From: Roseburia sp.
GTDB lineage: Bacteria > Bacillota > Clostridia > Lachnospirales > Lachnospiraceae
Direction of reading: 5' to 3'
Length of the DNA: 34,997 nucleotides
Assembly (NCBI GenBank): GCA_023662875.1
Contig: JAMPIG010000036.1
Span: forward strand, 1 to 34,997
The notes beneath the pieces are model-generated. The model ran no database searches, was not told where the DNA came from, and saw only the letters and a list, made by a program, of their open reading frames with translations. How positions within the stretch are numbered: the stretch's first letter is position 1; every line of letters begins with the position of its first letter. Made by a program: the position numbers and the translations under genes. Of the stretch, positions 17,667 through 26,054 are shown in pieces.

Positions 17667-17737
17667 AGGGGAATAGTACAGTGGTAGTGCGGCGGTCTCC
17701 AAAACCGTTAACGGGAGTTCGAGCCTCTCTTCCCCTG
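17667..17737 (+). tRNA. tRNA-Trp (CCA)
   Basis: The 71-base cloverleaf has acceptor AGGGGAA pairing with TTCCCCT, then discriminator G. The D-stem is GTAC/GTGC around a short 7-base loop. The anticodon stem is GCGGT/ACCGT with loop CTCCAAA (anticodon CCA). The T-arm is GGGAG TTCGAGC CTCTC. The 3' CCA is not encoded. The D-loop and variable loop are short, so the molecule is slightly smaller than usual but all stems pair. A terminator follows immediately. Confidence 0.92.
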
Positions 17738-17740
17738 CTG

Positions 17741-18008: not shown

Positions 18009-18461
18009 ATGAAGAGAACAGAGGAAACAGTATTGCAGAATCAGAACAACCCGAGGACAGAGGAGAAGAGCGAGGCCGATAGACTGGAGCAGGCGCTTCG
18101 TACCCTGCGGGAATATGTAAAAGAGTTGGCCGCGAGGGCGGGAGAGAGCGAGACTTACGCGGAGACGCTCTGGGAGGATATTTGGAATTCCTCAGGACTG
18201 CTGCAGGAGCTGGCTTATTATCATGACTACGGGACTTTTTTGTGCAAGTATTCGGTGGCGGGGTACACTCTGGCGGACGCGCTGGTCTGGCAGGTGGATC
18301 ACTTTAAGCTGTATATGGATCGCCCGGAGGAAATGAACCGATATCGACGGGAGCGGCTGCTCCTTTCGGCGTTCGCCAGTATGGTACAGCTGGAAAAGGA
18401 TCCTGCCCCGCTCCGGAAAAAGATGGAAGAGGAGTCGGGGCAGGATGCGGCGAACGGGTGA
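18009..18461 (+). CDS. Hypothetical protein, unknown function
   Basis: I do not recognise this family. The 150-residue product is soluble and mostly helical. An N-terminal charged stretch (EKSEADRLEQALRTLREYVKELAAR) could form a coiled coil. A distinctive core follows (SSGLLQELAYYHDYGTFLCKYSVAGYTLADALVWQVDHFKLYMD), rich in aromatic residues, and the tail is acidic and basic mixed. ATG 18009 follows GAAGGGG; an in-frame ATG at 17982 lies in a hairpin and has no site. It converges on the 763-residue gene with 6 bases between stop codons. The two may be functionally linked, but only by position. Confidence 0.7.
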   Translation: MKRTEETVLQNQNNPRTEEKSEADRLEQALRTLREYVKELAARAGESETYAETLWEDIWNSSGLLQELAYYHDYGTFLCKYSVAGYTLADALVWQVDHFKLYMDRPEEMNRYRRERLLLSAFASMVQLEKDPAPLRKKMEEESGQDAANG

Positions 18462-18467
18462 GGGATC

Positions 18468-20759
18468 TCACACCTTCCCCACCGTATAATTGATTTCCGC
18501 CTCCAGGGTAGCCGGGATAGGGGTATTGCCGTTGCGCAGCTTCTGCTTCAGCATCTCCAGGCGGTGTACCCGCTGGCTGGCGAGAACCTTCTGCCGCTCC
18601 ATCAGCTCCGTGTAGGTCGGGTTCTGCTCCATGGTGGCCGCCAGAGGGGCGGGGAACGGGCAGTAGGTAAAGAGGATTCTTCTGGCTACCTTGTTCAGTC
18701 GGGGAGAACCGCTTCCCTCAAACAATACCCAGATAACGTAATCCCGCACAAACATTTCCTTAAAGCTGTTCTTCGCCCGCTGCAGGCCATTGCGGATTCT
18801 TTCCTTGGCCTCGCCGCTGAGCTCCTGATTCTTCCGGAAGAACTGGATATAATCGAAGTATTCGCTGGTGAGGGAGCGCTCGGAGACGTCGTTCCAGCGG
18901 CTTCCCTGTACGCGCTTGCACATCTCCCAGCGGAATTCGCCGGTAAGCCGAACCATGGTCGAGCTGAGATCCTCCATATGGAAGATCGAGAGGAACATCC
19001 GACCGTGGGTATTGCGCTTCTTTCCTTCGATCTCCTGCCACATGACGCCTCGGGTTCCCACATTGGGCATCAGGATGATATCCGGGAGGAATTCCAGGTG
19101 GATCGTTTCCTTTCCCATGGTCTCCATATTGTCGTAGTCCATGCTCTCCCGGTAAAAGGCGGAGTAGTCTATCGATCGGATCATATGGAAAGCCTTCTTG
19201 ATCTGGGAGGTAGTGACGAAGGCCGGGTTCAGATCCTTCATCACATTGTCCGCGGCGAAAAGAGGACAGAAGGTCGTGATCCGGCCGCAGGTCATCTTGT
19301 TGCCCTGCTGGAACATATTTTCCATTTCAAATTTCACCTTGCTCATGGGATCGTTTTCCATGGCGGTCATCTGGGCGGCCGTGATATTGCCGCTGGACTT
19401 TTGTTTATGGATATAGTCGGTAAAGTCCTCGTCAAACTCATTCCGGCAGGGACTCTTCTCGCCCCGGTAAATAGCCTGCAGCCAGTGGAACATGGTGTAG
19501 ACGCCGAAGCTGCTCTGATCCTCCATGCCGAAGGCCAGCTTGTAGAGCTTGGCGCAGTTGGCGGAACCGGCCAGATCCTCGTCCACATAGCCGAAATAGA
19601 GGAACATTTTTACCGGCGTCGGGAGGAAGGAGGCGGAGACGGCCTTTTCGAAGATCACGGCGTACAGGGAATAGAATTCGTCTGTCAGCTGTCTGCGCAG
19701 GCGGATGATCTTGTCCTCCATGGCGTTCTTGTCCTCTAAGGCGCTGTATTCGCCGACATGCTGACGGAAGGTGTCGGCGGCGGTCTGTTCGAGCTCCGCG
19801 TATTCCAGGATTGTGTTCAGGGAGTTGGTCAGCTCCTGGGCGACCGCCGGGGACATGCCTTCCTGTTTTTCCGTCTTTTCCTCTGCGGAGCCGCTGATCT
19901 TGGAGAGGCTGCCGCGGAATTTGGCGATCCGGGCGGCGGTCTGGGACGAATCCAGGGAAGGATCGTTTTCAAACTGCTCGATGATGCGGTTCAGACTGTC
20001 GTACAGTCCCGCGGAATCCTCGTTGTTCTGGCCGAGGCGGAGGTACAGGGAGGAAAGCCGCTCAAAAAGGTCATCTCCGGAGGGGGCGAAATAACATGCC
20101 GCGATGGAAGTGCGGTACTGGGCCTTTTCCTCGAGGGCCGTAAAGGCGGCGCGGAAATCCTGAAGTCCCTTGCGGAGGATGCCGACAGAGACGCCGGGCT
20201 CCTGCATCAGGGTTTTGACGGTTTCGCCCGTACCGGAATAGATGTGGAACAGGCCGAGATAATAAGTTGTCAGCCAGGTGTCCTGGGGTTCCCGATCCAG
20301 AAGTGCCGCCAGTTCCTCGGGAATATTCGGCTTCCGGGACTGGACGCCGTAGCGGTCACAGAGCTCGCCGTAGCTGTCGCAGTCCGCGAGCAGATTTTGA
20401 TGGAGAGCTGCGTAATTCATTTCCGAGAGAGAATTCTGCTTCTGCAGAAGGGAGATCTGACGGAAGAGAGAGAGCAGAAACAGCCTTGCCACATCGGGAT
20501 GCTCCTGCAGAAAGCTCGTCAGAGACTCCATGTTTTTTATGGGATAGGACAATACCGAGGTTTCTTCCAGAGTCGTGTAACCCAGAAAGTGAACCTCCGA
20601 GTTCAGCTCGCAGATTCCGATTACATCCCCCTTGCTCAGCTGGTAACAGCCGCCGGGATATTCGGCCGACACCTTGCCCTTCGTAATCATGTGGAGAGCC
20701 GTTACGGGCTGTCCGGCCTGATAGAGACATTTCCCTTTTTCCAATGTAGTTCCTGCCAT
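18468..20759 (-). CDS. Large protein with degenerate cNMP-binding-like domain and unknown C-terminal region
   Basis: The 763-residue protein begins with a jelly-roll cyclic-nucleotide-binding-like domain (about residues 1-75: LEKGKCLYQAGQPVTALHMITKGKVSA...LSKGDVIGICELNS). The phosphate-binding cassette Arg normally in an FGE-x-R-x-A pattern is not seen, so binding of cAMP is doubtful. No helix-turn-helix follows as in CRP/FNR proteins. Residues about 85-370 are mainly helical with a low-complexity linker near 288-302. Residues about 375-705 are a dense, conserved-looking globular region (PDIILMPNVGTRGVMWQEIEG, GRMFLSIFHMEDLSS, GEFRWEMCKRVQGSRW, FVRDYVIWVLFEGSG). I do not recognise it. No signal peptide or transmembrane segment is evident. 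It is transcribed divergently from the 156-residue gene. Confidence 0.85.
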   Translation of the reverse strand: MAGTTLEKGKCLYQAGQPVTALHMITKGKVSAEYPGGCYQLSKGDVIGICELNSEVHFLGYTTLEETSVLSYPIKNMESLTSFLQEHPDVARLFLLSLFRQISLLQKQNSLSEMNYAALHQNLLADCDSYGELCDRYGVQSRKPNIPEELAALLDREPQDTWLTTYYLGLFHIYSGTGETVKTLMQEPGVSVGILRKGLQDFRAAFTALEEKAQYRTSIAACYFAPSGDDLFERLSSLYLRLGQNNEDSAGLYDSLNRIIEQFENDPSLDSSQTAARIAKFRGSLSKISGSAEEKTEKQEGMSPAVAQELTNSLNTILEYAELEQTAADTFRQHVGEYSALEDKNAMEDKIIRLRRQLTDEFYSLYAVIFEKAVSASFLPTPVKMFLYFGYVDEDLAGSANCAKLYKLAFGMEDQSSFGVYTMFHWLQAIYRGEKSPCRNEFDEDFTDYIHKQKSSGNITAAQMTAMENDPMSKVKFEMENMFQQGNKMTCGRITTFCPLFAADNVMKDLNPAFVTTSQIKKAFHMIRSIDYSAFYRESMDYDNMETMGKETIHLEFLPDIILMPNVGTRGVMWQEIEGKKRNTHGRMFLSIFHMEDLSSTMVRLTGEFRWEMCKRVQGSRWNDVSERSLTSEYFDYIQFFRKNQELSGEAKERIRNGLQRAKNSFKEMFVRDYVIWVLFEGSGSPRLNKVARRILFTYCPFPAPLAATMEQNPTYTELMERQKVLASQRVHRLEMLKQKLRNGNTPIPATLEAEINYTVGKV

Positions 20760-20846
20760 TTTTATTTCACGCCTTTCTGTAAAAATCTTCTGACATTCGC
20801 TGCCGGAGTCCGGCTGCGAATGTCAGGCTGAAAAACAACCTCTTTC

Positions 20847-20890
20847 ATTATAGCACTTAGATAATAGAATCGGCACTTCGATTCTATTAT
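20847..20890 (-). promoter_or_regulatory. Extended -10 promoter with 12-bp palindromic operator
   Basis: On the minus strand TGCTATAAT (20855-20847) is an extended -10, about 88 bases before the 763-residue gene. No TTGACA-like -35 is present. In its place lies a perfect inverted repeat, ATAATAGAATCG (20861-20872) GCACTT CGATTCTATTAT (20879-20890). This suggests a site where a factor either blocks or replaces -35 contact. A weak plus-strand -10-like word TAAAAT lies near 20938, before the divergent gene. Confidence 0.65.
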
Positions 20891-21001
20891 ACACCATTCT
20901 CCGCAATTTTCTACTGTACTTTTATTAAAAATGTGATAAAATAAAAATACATATGTGTCATTTTTTGCCGACAGCGGCGACAGGGGGGAAAGAGAGCGGC
21001 T

Positions 21002-21472
21002 ATGGATAAGGATACGGAAAGCAGACAGCAGCTTCTGAGGGAGTATGAGCGGATGGTGATGCCGTTGCTGCGTTATATACCCTGGCTGGAAAAGAACAGA
21101 GGCCGGAATGTCAGGGAGTATTACGAGGATCCAGAGCAGTCGGAGCATGCCATGAGCATACCGGTCTACGACGGCACGCTGATGAATTTTGTAAAGGAGG
21201 CGGCGGCCTCGGAGCTGATGGATCGGAATTATCAGTATATCTATACGAGAAATCGGATCAAAACCCACGCGGACGAGAGAAGGGTTATAGCGTCCGCCGA
21301 GCTGAGGGACTGGGATTTGCTGCGGGGAATTTTGTCGAAGTATGTCATGGGCGGCAGGACGAAGAGCGTTCTCTGGACCCAGGGAGTACAGGAGGATATC
21401 TTTTATCTGACGCTGAAGAAGATGCAGGAGATTATCACCTTCTGGGACAGGGATCTGAAGATACGGGAGTAA
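21002..21472 (+). CDS. Hypothetical protein, unknown function
   Basis: The family is not recognised. The 156-residue soluble protein is helical, with charged N-terminal helices (ESRQQLLREYERMVMPLLRYI), a central patch HAMSIPVYDGTLMNFVKEA and a C-terminal region VLWTQGVQEDIFYLTLKKMQEIITFWD. It has no membrane segment or signal. ATG 21002 follows a G-rich site (GGGGGG) about 15 bases upstream, with AAAGAGAG closer. It is divergent from the large cNMP-like gene across a palindromic control region, so the two may share regulation. Confidence 0.7.
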   Translation: MDKDTESRQQLLREYERMVMPLLRYIPWLEKNRGRNVREYYEDPEQSEHAMSIPVYDGTLMNFVKEAAASELMDRNYQYIYTRNRIKTHADERRVIASAELRDWDLLRGILSKYVMGGRTKSVLWTQGVQEDIFYLTLKKMQEIITFWDRDLKIRE

Positions 21473-21636: not shown

Positions 21637-22221
21637 ATGGGAGAAAAATCGGTACAAAAGAAGAAATTTATACTGGAGACGGCTCGGAAGGTGTTCGTGG
21701 AAAAGGGCTTTAAAAAGGTGACGATGAAGGATATCGTGGAGGCCTGCGAGATCAGCCGCGGCGGTCTTTATCTTTATTTCGACAATACGAGCCAGATTTT
21801 TCTCGAGGTGATGAAGCTGGAGAGCGAGGAGACGGACGACGTCTTTTCCGACAATATCACGGAGGATACGACGGCTGCGGATATACTGGTTCTTTTTTTG
21901 CGGGAACAAAAGAAGGAATTGCTGCGCAAGAAGGATACCCTGACGCAGGCGATCTATGAATATTACTTTGAGAATCGGCCGGGCAAGAAGGATAACGTGC
22001 TGAAGAAGCAGTTTGATTCCGCCTGCAAGATTATCGAGAAGCTGATTGAGACCGGGGTAGAGAACGGCGAGTTTTTCTGCGAGGACTGTCAGGGTACGGC
22101 GCGGAATATCATGTTCGTCCTGGAGGGCTTAAAGATTTCGGCTCAGACCATCGGAATTACCTCGGAGACGGTAGACCGGGAGATTCTGTTTATTCTGGGG
22201 TCTCTTGGGGTAGAAGTATGA
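21637..22221 (+). CDS. TetR/AcrR-family transcriptional regulator
   Basis: The 194-residue protein has an N-terminal TetR helix-turn-helix (KKFILETARKVFVEKGFKKVTMKDIVEACEISRGGLYLYFDNTSQIF, about residues 8-56) and an all-helical C-terminal half that would bind the ligand. TetR proteins usually repress a nearby gene until a small molecule binds. ATG 21637 follows GAGGGCAGG. Its stop at 22221 lies 35 bases before the purL start chosen here, and the two could be cotranscribed. What it senses is unknown; a link to purine level is possible but not shown. Confidence 0.9.
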   Translation: MGEKSVQKKKFILETARKVFVEKGFKKVTMKDIVEACEISRGGLYLYFDNTSQIFLEVMKLESEETDDVFSDNITEDTTAADILVLFLREQKKELLRKKDTLTQAIYEYYFENRPGKKDNVLKKQFDSACKIIEKLIETGVENGEFFCEDCQGTARNIMFVLEGLKISAQTIGITSETVDREILFILGSLGVEV

Positions 22222-22256
22222 ACGGATCGTTCATGATGCAGGAGGAAGAGACAGGA

Positions 22257-25200
22257 ATGGGAAATGTCAGACGGATTTATGTGGAAAAGAAGGAGCCCTA
22301 CGCGGTAAAGGCCAGGGAGCTGCGGGAGGAGCTGAAAAACTATCTGGGGCTTAAGGTGGACGGCGTCCGGGAATTTATACGATATGATGTGGAAAATATC
22401 TCCGACGAGGTCTTCGAGACGGCCTGCAGGACGGTATTTTCCGAGCCGCCGGTGGATGACCTGTACCGGGAGAGCATCGAGATCCCGGACGGGGCAAGGG
22501 TCTTCTCCGTGGAGTTTCTGCCCGGGCAGTTTGACCAGCGGGCCGATTCCGCGGAGCAGTGTATCAAATTCCTGCGGGAGGATGAGGAGCCTGTAATACG
22601 GACGGCTGTGACCTATCTGATTCAGGGTGGGATCTCCGAGGAAGAATTTGTACGGATTAAAGCCTATTGCATCAATCCGGTGGATTCCAGGGAGACCGGG
22701 ATGCAGAAGCCGGACACCCTGATCGCGAATTATGAGGAACCGGCGGATATTGCGGTGTTTGAAGGATTTTCCGGGATGGGAGAGGAGGAGCTGAGGAGGC
22801 TTTACGATTCCCTGTCCCTCGCTATGACCTTCCGGGATTTCCTGCATATTCAGAAGTATTTCCGGGAGGAGGAACGGCGGGATCCTACGGTGACGGAGAT
22901 CCGCGTTCTGGATACCTATTGGTCCGACCACTGCCGTCATACTACCTTTTCCACGGAGTTGACAAGCGTGGAGTTCGGGGAGGGCTATTACCGCACGCCC
23001 ATCGAGACTGCCTATCAGAGCTATATGGATACCCGGAAGGAAATTTATGGGGAGAGAAAGGATAAGTTTGTCTGTCTGATGGATCTGGCGCTTATGGCGA
23101 TGCGGAAGCTGAAGAAGGACGGCAGGCTGGAGGACCTTGAGGAGTCGGACGAGATCAACGCCTGCTCCGTCGTCGTGCCTGTGGAGATGGATTACGGGGA
23201 TCATCGGGAGACCGAGGAGTGGCTGGTATTTTTTAAGAATGAGACACACAATCACCCTACTGAGATCGAGCCCTTCGGCGGCGCGGCAACCTGCCTGGGC
23301 GGGGCGATCCGGGATCCGCTTTCCGGCAGGGGCTACGTCTATCAGGCCATGCGCGTCACGGGGGCGGCGGATCCTACGGTTCCTGTCTCGGAAACCCTTA
23401 AGGGCAAGCTGTCCCAGAAGCGTCTGGTGAGGGGAGCGGCTAACGGTTATTCTTCCTACGGCAACCAGATCGGCCTGGCTACGGGTCTTGTCAGGGAAAT
23501 TTACCATCCGGATTATGTGGCAAAGAGGATGGAGATCGGTGCCGTTATGGGCGCTGCGCCCCGGAAGAATGTCATCCGGGGAACCTCGGATCCCGGCGAT
23601 ATCATTATCCTGCTGGGGGGACGAACCGGGAGGGACGGCTGCGGCGGCGCTACGGGTTCCTCCAAGGTACATACGGAGAGCTCGATCGAAACCTGCGGCG
23701 CGGAGGTGCAGAAGGGTAACGCGCCCACGGAGAGAAAGATCCAGAGGCTGTTCCGCCGGGCGGAGGTGAGCCGGTTAATCAAAAAATGCAACGACTTTGG
23801 GGCGGGCGGCGTGTCGGTAGCCATCGGAGAGCTGGCGGACGGACTTACCGTAGATTTGGATAAGGTGCCGAAGAAATATGCGGGACTGGACGGGACGGAG
23901 CTTGCGATCTCCGAGTCCCAGGAGCGCATGGCGGTAGTGGTAGCCCCTGAGAATCAGGAAAAGTTTCTGGCCTATGCGGCGGAGGAAAACCTGGAGGCTG
24001 TGGCTGTGGCGGTCGTTACGAAGGAGCCCAGGCTGGCGCTGAACTGGAGGGGAAAGAGGATCGTGGATCTGAAGCGGTCTTTCCTGGATACCAACGGAGC
24101 CCATCAGGAGACCGCCGTAGAGGTTGACATCCCGGACGAGAAAGAAAATTATTTCCGGAAGGCCGCGGTTCCCGCCGTGGGGGCGGCGCTGGGGAAGGGC
24201 GATATCAAAGGGGCCTGGCTGACTCTTTTGAGCGATTTAAACGTCTGTTCCCAAAAAGGGCTGGTAGAAATGTTTGACGCCTCGATCGGCGCGGGGAGCG
24301 TCCTGATGCCCTACGGGGGCGTATATCAGATGACGGAGATCCAGGCTATGGTGGCAAAGCTTCCGGCGCTTAGGGGTAAGACGGACACAGTTACCATGAT
24401 GAGCTACGGCTTTGACCCTTATCTGTCCTCCTGGAGCCCTTATCACGGCGCGGTTTACGCGGTGGTTGAGTCCATGGCGAAGATCGTCGCCTCCGGCGGG
24501 GATCCCGCCCGGATACGGTTTACCTTCCAGGAATATTTCCGCAGGATGACGGGGGATCCGAAGCGTTGGAGCCAGCCCTTTGCGGCTCTGCTGGGAGCCT
24601 ACGACGCCCAGATCGGCTTCGGCCTGCCCTCCATAGGGGGGAAGGACAGTATGTCCGGCACATTTAACGATATCGATGTGCCGCCGACGCTGGTTTCCTT
24701 CGCGGTGGATGTCGCGAGGAGCGGGGAGATTCTGACGCCGGAGCTGAAGAAGCCCGGCAGCCGGCTGGTTCGGTTCACGATCGAGAAGGATGATTATGAT
24801 ATCCCGGTTTATGACGATGCGGCGAAGCTGTACGGGGCGCTGCATGAGCTGGCGGTGAGTAAGACGCTGGTATCGGCTTATGCGCTGGACGCGAAGGGCG
24901 TGGCGGCGGCTTTGTCGAAGATGGCCTTCGGCAACGGGCTGGGCGTCCGGATGGAGGAGGATGTAACGGCGGCGAGCCTGTTTGAGAACGGGCTTGGCGA
25001 TATCCTGGCGGAAGTCCCTGCGGAGAAGCTGTCCGTCCTGGAGGCGAAGGGGCTGGACTATACGGTGATCGGGACGGTGACCGAAGAGCCGGTTATCGCT
25101 CTGGGAGAGGTCAGGATTCCTCTGGAGGAGGCGCTCGCGGCCTGGACGGGCAGGCTGGAGAAGGTATTTGCCACAAAGGTGACCGGGGAGAGGGCACCGG

Positions 25201-26054
25201 TGGAAAGTCCTCTCTACCATGCAGACAAGGTCTATATCTGTAAAAACAAGGTGGCGCGGCCCGTCGTCTTTATTCCGGTTTTCCCCGGAACCAACTGCGA
25301 GTACGACAGCGCGAAGGCTTTTGAGCGGGCGGGGGCGGAGGTTGTGACAAAGGTCTTCCGCAACCTGAGCGCCCAGGATATCCGGGAGTCGGTGGAGGAG
25401 TTTGAGAAAGCGATCGCCCAGGCCCAGATTATCATGTTCCCCGGGGGCTTTTCCGCAGGAGACGAGCCGGACGGCAGCGCGAAGTTCTTCGCTACAGCTT
25501 TCCGGAATGAGAAGCTGAAGGAAGCGGTTCGCAAGCTCCTGGACGAAAGGGACGGGCTGGCGCTGGGAATCTGCAACGGTTTTCAGGCGCTGATTAAGCT
25601 GGGGCTGGTTCCCACAGGGGAGATAGCGGGCCAGAAGGAGGATGCGCCTACGCTGACCTTTAATACGATAAACCGCCACATCTCCAGAATGGTCTATACG
25701 AAAGTGGTATCCGACAAGTCGCCCTGGCTGAGGAAGGCCCGGCTGGGTGGGGTATACTGTAATCCGGCCTCACACGGCGAGGGGCGGTTTGTGGCGTCGA
25801 AGGAGTGGATCGACAGGCTGTTTGCGAACGGCCAGGTAGCCACCCAATATTCGGATCCGGAGGGTCGGGTATCCATGGATGAAGATTATAATATCAACGG
25901 CTCCTACTGCGCGATTGAGGGAATTACCTCCCCGGACGGCCGTGTCCTGGGGAAGATGGCGCATTCCGAGAGGCGGGGGGACGCTGTGGCAGTCAATATT
26001 TACGGGCGGCAGGACATCGAAATTTTCGAGTCCGGCGTCGAATATTTCCGTTAG
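22257..26054 (+). CDS. purL: Phosphoribosylformylglycinamidine synthase (fused PurL-PurQ)
   Basis: This 1265-residue enzyme converts FGAR, glutamine and ATP to FGAM in purine synthesis. The synthetase half carries SDHCRHTTF (residues about 223-231) and KNETHNHPTEIEPFGGAATCLGG, the metal and nucleotide-binding blocks. The C-terminal glutaminase half has VFPGTNCEYDSAKAF, FPGGFSAGDEPDGS and GICNGFQ with nucleophile Cys1106; the His-Glu pair is in MAHSER (His1236, Glu1238). Length fits the clostridial single-chain type. ATG 22257 follows GGAGGAAG; an ATG at 22218 overlaps the TetR stop but adds a poorly conserved leader. Opposite-strand frames of 480-509 codons are shadows. Confidence 0.95.
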   Translation: MGNVRRIYVEKKEPYAVKARELREELKNYLGLKVDGVREFIRYDVENISDEVFETACRTVFSEPPVDDLYRESIEIPDGARVFSVEFLPGQFDQRADSAEQCIKFLREDEEPVIRTAVTYLIQGGISEEEFVRIKAYCINPVDSRETGMQKPDTLIANYEEPADIAVFEGFSGMGEEELRRLYDSLSLAMTFRDFLHIQKYFREEERRDPTVTEIRVLDTYWSDHCRHTTFSTELTSVEFGEGYYRTPIETAYQSYMDTRKEIYGERKDKFVCLMDLALMAMRKLKKDGRLEDLEESDEINACSVVVPVEMDYGDHRETEEWLVFFKNETHNHPTEIEPFGGAATCLGGAIRDPLSGRGYVYQAMRVTGAADPTVPVSETLKGKLSQKRLVRGAANGYSSYGNQIGLATGLVREIYHPDYVAKRMEIGAVMGAAPRKNVIRGTSDPGDIIILLGGRTGRDGCGGATGSSKVHTESSIETCGAEVQKGNAPTERKIQRLFRRAEVSRLIKKCNDFGAGGVSVAIGELADGLTVDLDKVPKKYAGLDGTELAISESQERMAVVVAPENQEKFLAYAAEENLEAVAVAVVTKEPRLALNWRGKRIVDLKRSFLDTNGAHQETAVEVDIPDEKENYFRKAAVPAVGAALGKGDIKGAWLTLLSDLNVCSQKGLVEMFDASIGAGSVLMPYGGVYQMTEIQAMVAKLPALRGKTDTVTMMSYGFDPYLSSWSPYHGAVYAVVESMAKIVASGGDPARIRFTFQEYFRRMTGDPKRWSQPFAALLGAYDAQIGFGLPSIGGKDSMSGTFNDIDVPPTLVSFAVDVARSGEILTPELKKPGSRLVRFTIEKDDYDIPVYDDAAKLYGALHELAVSKTLVSAYALDAKGVAAALSKMAFGNGLGVRMEEDVTAASLFENGLGDILAEVPAEKLSVLEAKGLDYTVIGTVTEEPVIALGEVRIPLEEALAAWTGRLEKVFATKVTGERAPVESPLYHADKVYICKNKVARPVVFIPVFPGTNCEYDSAKAFERAGAEVVTKVFRNLSAQDIRESVEEFEKAIAQAQIIMFPGGFSAGDEPDGSAKFFATAFRNEKLKEAVRKLLDERDGLALGICNGFQALIKLGLVPTGEIAGQKEDAPTLTFNTINRHISRMVYTKVVSDKSPWLRKARLGGVYCNPASHGEGRFVASKEWIDRLFANGQVATQYSDPEGRVSMDEDYNINGSYCAIEGITSPDGRVLGKMAHSERRGDAVAVNIYGRQDIEIFESGVEYFR

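Follow-up and report, generated by a model that had tools for sequence, protein, structure and literature searches.

A conserved, unnamed protein of Roseburia and other Bacillota with a degenerate CRP-type domain and a possibly zincin-like C-terminal domain

A conserved protein independent of its neighbours

A 763-residue protein encoded on contig JAMPIG010000036.1 of Roseburia sp. (assembly GCA_023662875.1), a Lachnospiraceae gut bacterium, within the 34,997-nucleotide stretch analysed here (the window), is a real, conserved and unnamed protein that is not part of a three-gene system. Its gene (hereafter the big gene) is flanked by genes for a 150-residue and a 156-residue protein (p150 and p156), and all three open reading frames (ORFs) sit where a first-pass annotation had placed them (Table 1). 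That annotation regarded the three genes as a single locus; we find that p150 and p156 are a separate gene pair, independent of the big gene, which they merely flank. The 763-residue protein joins a CRP-type jelly roll of the cyclic nucleotide-binding (CNB) superfamily to a large C-terminal domain that also occurs in other settings, and we tentatively read it as a stand-alone sensor, in which a CRP-type input domain would be coupled to a zincin-like, non-proteolytic output domain.

Counting matches at E ≤ 0.001 with the host included, in samples of relatives, order, class and phylum that overlap one another, the big gene was found in 55 of 117 genomes of relatives (8 of 40 genera, seven of them besides the host genus), in 46 of 216 genomes across the order (21 of 105 genera), in 22 of 391 across the class (11 of 222 genera) and in 9 of 299 across the phylum (7 of 215 genera). 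The host genome itself (151 contigs, ~92% complete) holds a single match. Loci were compared for the best 80 of 176 confirmed relatives, mostly labelled Lachnospiraceae or Acetatifactor. No description of the protein family was found in the literature searched, which excludes most subscription papers, and the only work found there on CNB domains together with zincins concerns the lipocone superfamily.

Gene order and distribution of p150 and p156

Among 73 genomes of the host genus, p156 is present in 62, p150 in 53 and the big gene in 48. The big gene and p156 share 47 genomes and lie within 1.5 kb of each other in 34 of these, always divergently; in two more they are 1.5–8 kb apart, and in the remaining 11 further apart or on other contigs. 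Where p150 and p156 occur together (48 genomes), the big gene lies between them in 20, on the opposite strand in every case as judged by eye (the gap in G034 is 17.9 kb). In 14 others the small genes follow one another on the same strand, 116–1893 bp apart, with no big gene between them; it lies elsewhere in six of these 14, in G010, G031 and G059 as a form with only 31% identity. One further genome has the pair in opposite orientation and 13 have it on different contigs, some possibly through assembly breaks. Fifteen genomes of the genus carry p156 without the big gene, and in five loci with the big gene 4–5 kb away (L074, L083–L085 and L088) p156 stays beside its TetR-family gene.

Beyond the genus the distributions part further. 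Among relatives the two small genes were each recovered from the host genus alone (1 of 40 genera), and class-wide profile searches recovered p150 in 4 and p156 in 9 of 245 genomes, two of each being in the host genus. The three g41 genomes hold p156 and the big gene on separate contigs, and in G202 p150 occurs without the big gene. The expectation that the three genes stay together therefore failed, because the small genes pair without the big gene and the big gene is found in genera that yielded neither small gene, and we rejected a three-gene unit on both gene order and distribution. Most simply, the big gene either entered a p150–p156–tetR row by insertion or was lost from one.

Of 27 p150 members scanned, none matched a Pfam family at E ≤ 0.01; 19 of 34 scanned members of the p156 family matched DUF6508 (PF20118, of unknown function according to Pfam) at that threshold, with a best E of 9.9e-6, whereas p156 of the window reached 18.3 bits, under the curated cut-off of 23.6. 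In G004, G012 and G025 the sole p150 match is weak and probably marks a paralogue, and a second p150 match, roughly 30% identical, lies elsewhere in a number of host-genus genomes.

A CRP-type domain without the canonical arginine

The full-length model (63 sequences, mean predicted local distance difference test score 85.5) starts with a jelly roll and continues through a long helix and a helical middle to a mixed C-terminal part. In fold searches the jelly roll matched FNR and CRP, and PF00027 was matched at E ≤ 0.1 by all 63 aligned members, by eight of ten more distant members (L139 and L142 being the others) and by G530, so that the CRP-type jelly roll of the CNB superfamily is present. 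Several distant relatives (L139–L142, L145 and L149) carry long insertions in it. The canonical phosphate-binding cassette of CNB domains contains a Glu and an Arg, and that pair is missing here: residues 46–62 hold no Arg in 61 of 63 members, the remaining two having one at position 62, and the canonical Glu position corresponds, by hand alignment only, to I49. The region is nonetheless conserved, reading GDVIGICE.CSEVHF in most members, with E51 retained in 63, H57 in 59 and C50 in 53 of 63 sequences. The domain thus deserves the description 'degenerate' that it had been given, and the lack of a recognisable DNA-binding domain was also confirmed: the window protein matched no helix-turn-helix (HTH) family in Pfam at E ≤ 1, leaving no sign of the C-terminal HTH of CRP/FNR proteins, and one of 63 members had a weak match to a Myb-associated domain (E 0.018). 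The protein accordingly differs from the CNB superfamily at large in its missing cassette Arg, its lack of an HTH match and its large unnamed C-terminal domain.

A C-terminal domain found in other settings

The C-terminal part was modelled alone because the CNB domain had filled the full-length fold searches, and the fold comparison extended to the families on the aligner's list. It found no convincing family in Pfam, NCBIfam, PHROGs or PADLOC, in keeping with its first-pass description as a region of no named family; matches to ALIX, Csm2 and ZorA were low-scoring or under cut-off. It is nevertheless the most conserved part of the protein, with many invariant or nearly invariant positions across 24 diverse members, and a set of 14 proteins, among them five stand-alone forms and one from Leptospira, shares 33 invariant positions (32 if the start Met is not counted). 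The stand-alone forms come from other classes of the phylum, where five of the six carriers in the phylum-wide sample have the domain alone (469–476 amino acids) and one (G530) has it with the CNB domain. The form from Leptospira interrogans, WP_000465640.1 (a 707-residue hypothetical protein without a Pfam match; L186 6359–8482), is ~30% identical to residues 257–721 of the window protein; the two proteins have this domain in common, but that of Leptospira carries an N-terminus that we read as hydrophobic and has no CNB domain there.

Weak structural matches suggest that the fold of this domain may be zincin-like. It differs from zincin metallopeptidases (the small zincin 3e11, PPEP-2 and M1-, M32-, M3- and M48-type enzymes) in that the zinc-binding motif HExxH occurs in 0 of 92 sequences and in that a sequence search of the PDB detected no similarity to zincins, nor any convincing enzyme match. 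PrpR and RamB, regulators with a degenerate IrrE-like region, offer a comparison, but PrpR combines an HTH with an Fe-S cluster, and no sequence similarity to the 763-residue protein emerged here.

Proposed mechanism and alternatives

That the protein senses, passes on a signal and has an output without catalysis is a reading of its anatomy only. On the reading that we tentatively favour, it would act alone as a cytoplasmic sensor or regulator: the CRP-type domain (residues 1–115) would be the sensory part, its usual mode of cyclic nucleotide binding precluded; the long helix (88–137) would relay the state of that domain; and the C-terminal domain (about 300–755), a zincin-like fold without HExxH, would be the output, serving as a binding module and not as a protease. 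The main rival, which we hold possible but somewhat less probable, makes the C-terminal domain an active enzyme with an undescribed active site (e.g. R587, R610, W611, E681 and R687), regulated by the CNB-like domain as in CNB-regulated acyltransferases. Dense invariant polar and aromatic residues retained in the stand-alone and Leptospira forms would suit an enzyme, as would the CNB–enzyme fusions among the fold matches, namely mycobacterial acyltransferase 4orf and EAL protein Bd1971; yet protein or ligand binding could also explain those residues, and the family and PDB searches yielded no convincing enzyme family. Unlikely, and a little more so than an enzyme, is a CNB-like domain that serves as a ligand-free structural dimerisation module, as the loss of the phosphate-binding Arg throughout the aligned members and the jelly-roll insertions of some relatives might indicate, since the cassette region is itself conserved, as one would expect if the site had kept a function.

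Two further explanations fare far worse. The jelly roll and long helix recall an ordinary CRP/FNR-family transcription regulator whose DNA-binding part has diverged. In CRP a short HTH region typically follows the helix. Here, however, 626 residues follow it without an HTH match, and their C-terminal domain forms a protein by itself elsewhere and in Leptospira is preceded by a hydrophobic N-terminus, so we consider such a regulator very improbable. The same holds for the first-pass proposal of a signal-binding scaffold with p150 and p156 as partners. It would account for the close divergent placement of the big gene and p156, but it is largely contradicted by the distribution described above, in which p150 and p156 pair without an intervening big gene, p156 occurs without it and remains with tetR when the big gene is at a distance, and several genera that yielded neither small gene hold the big gene. 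What does weigh against an independent big gene is its association with p156 within the host genus (both in 47 genomes, big gene alone in one, p156 alone in 15, neither in 10; p = 4.5e-5, a statistic that ignores phylogeny), which persists in the better genomes (24, 0, 8 and 3 in the same order; p = 0.025). Linkage, common ancestry and contigs absent from the assemblies may lie behind it; the presence of the big gene and that of p150 show no association in the genus (p = 0.28).

A cyclase in the host and wider significance

At E ≤ 1, the big gene is the sole place in the host genome (again ~92% complete) that matches PF00027. That genome, the only one checked in this respect, also encodes one class III nucleotidyl cyclase, a 635-residue ORF (L201 2147–4054) whose N-terminus we read as a CHASE2-like membrane region and whose catalytic motifs we read as intact. 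Its presence, contrary to expectation, weakens the argument that no cyclic nucleotide is at hand, and together with the only CNB-type protein found in the host it makes a possible cyclic-nucleotide pathway directly testable. A bolder and decidedly improbable extension is that gut Clostridia have an as yet unrecognised second-messenger pathway with the 763-residue protein as its output, and that non-canonical nucleotide binding by the degenerate CNB domain would drive a new pseudo-zincin effector domain that also occurs in Leptospira. More broadly, an unnamed conserved domain found in Bacillota and Leptospira behind differing N-termini marks an uncharacterised family of regulators or enzymes, and the zincin-like reading, if true, would add another protease fold converted into a binding module. 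The ORF adjoining the cyclase was read as a GAF-HD protein.

Control region, neighbouring genes and flanks

A palindrome had been noted at the control region shared by the big gene and p156. It is indeed present, but among the 55 regions compared the 18-nt-arm repeat is private to the window, and we rejected it as a shared operator; the conserved block precedes p156 instead. This strongly conserved, AT-rich element lies just upstream of p156. With six mismatches allowed, it was not found ahead of p156 in any of five loci in which the big gene is not its neighbour (L074, L083–L085 and L088). One arm of the 12-nt repeat recurs, as a loose match with at most three mismatches, in 20 of 55 regions, and a promoter-like pair on the strand of the big gene overlaps this repeat, such pairs being prone to chance (four found, 2.6 expected).

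Table 1. Coordinates in the window of the genes, protein regions and repeats discussed
Feature	Position	Strand	Remarks
Big gene (763-residue protein)	18468..20759	-	CNB-like domain, then a helical middle and a C-terminal domain whose fold may be zincin-like
p150	18009..18461	+	150-residue conserved protein without Pfam family; usual near neighbour of p156
p156	21002..21472	+	156-residue protein, divergent DUF6508 relative; followed by TetR-family gene
CRP/FNR-type jelly roll, residues 1-115	20415..20759	-	No canonical phosphate-binding Arg
Long helix after jelly roll, residues 88-137	20349..20498	-	Single helix in predicted model
C-terminal domain (part), residues 440-763	18471..19442	-	Conserved; modelled alone
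Core, residues 530-700	18660..19172	-	Helix 598-614 preceded by short strands; holds most of the invariant residues
GEFRWE, residues 607-612	18924..18941	-	Conserved motif on helix expected to bear HExxH in a zincin (rough, inferred placement)
Conserved element TGATAAAATAAAAATACATATGTGTCA	20934..20960	+	Upstream of p156; allowing 5 mismatches, found in 45 of 55 orthologous intergenic regions (the window counted)
18-nt-arm palindrome	20790..20826		Found in window only (1 of 55 regions)
12-nt-arm inverted repeat	20861..20890		Overlaps promoter-like -10 on the big gene's strand
tRNA-Trp gene	17667-17738		Ordinary-looking flank
TetR-family regulator gene	21637-22221		Ordinary-looking flank

Searches of PADLOC and PHROGs gave no support for a defence or phage origin; in PADLOC the window protein matched only ZorA1 (E 0.0013, 15.5 bits) and capH (E 0.0052), and a viral structure library returned no match at E ≤ 0.001, its top entry being a Crp-like protein. 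Behind the big gene, 10 of the best 80 loci have genes for a 79-residue protein, a MoxR ATPase, a DUF58 protein and a transglutaminase (e.g. L086 10280–14837, the row whose genes were scanned with Pfam); these loci have the same gene order and probably represent one lineage. An AAA_5 ATPase and a CobT-like VWA protein directly follow the big gene in G228 (L146), and in G443 a MoxR ATPase and then members of the same two clusters (DUF58 and transglutaminase) start ~5 kb downstream. A search with AAA_3 covered 68 of 109 carriers (leaving out 40 of 48 in the host genus and G946); 60 of the 68 had a match, which lay within 10 kb of the big gene, with positions read by eye, in G443 only, and a MoxR-type ATPase was accordingly rejected as its general partner. 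Beyond the TetR-family gene, a long ORF (22218–26054), likewise an ordinary-looking flank, is presumably purL.
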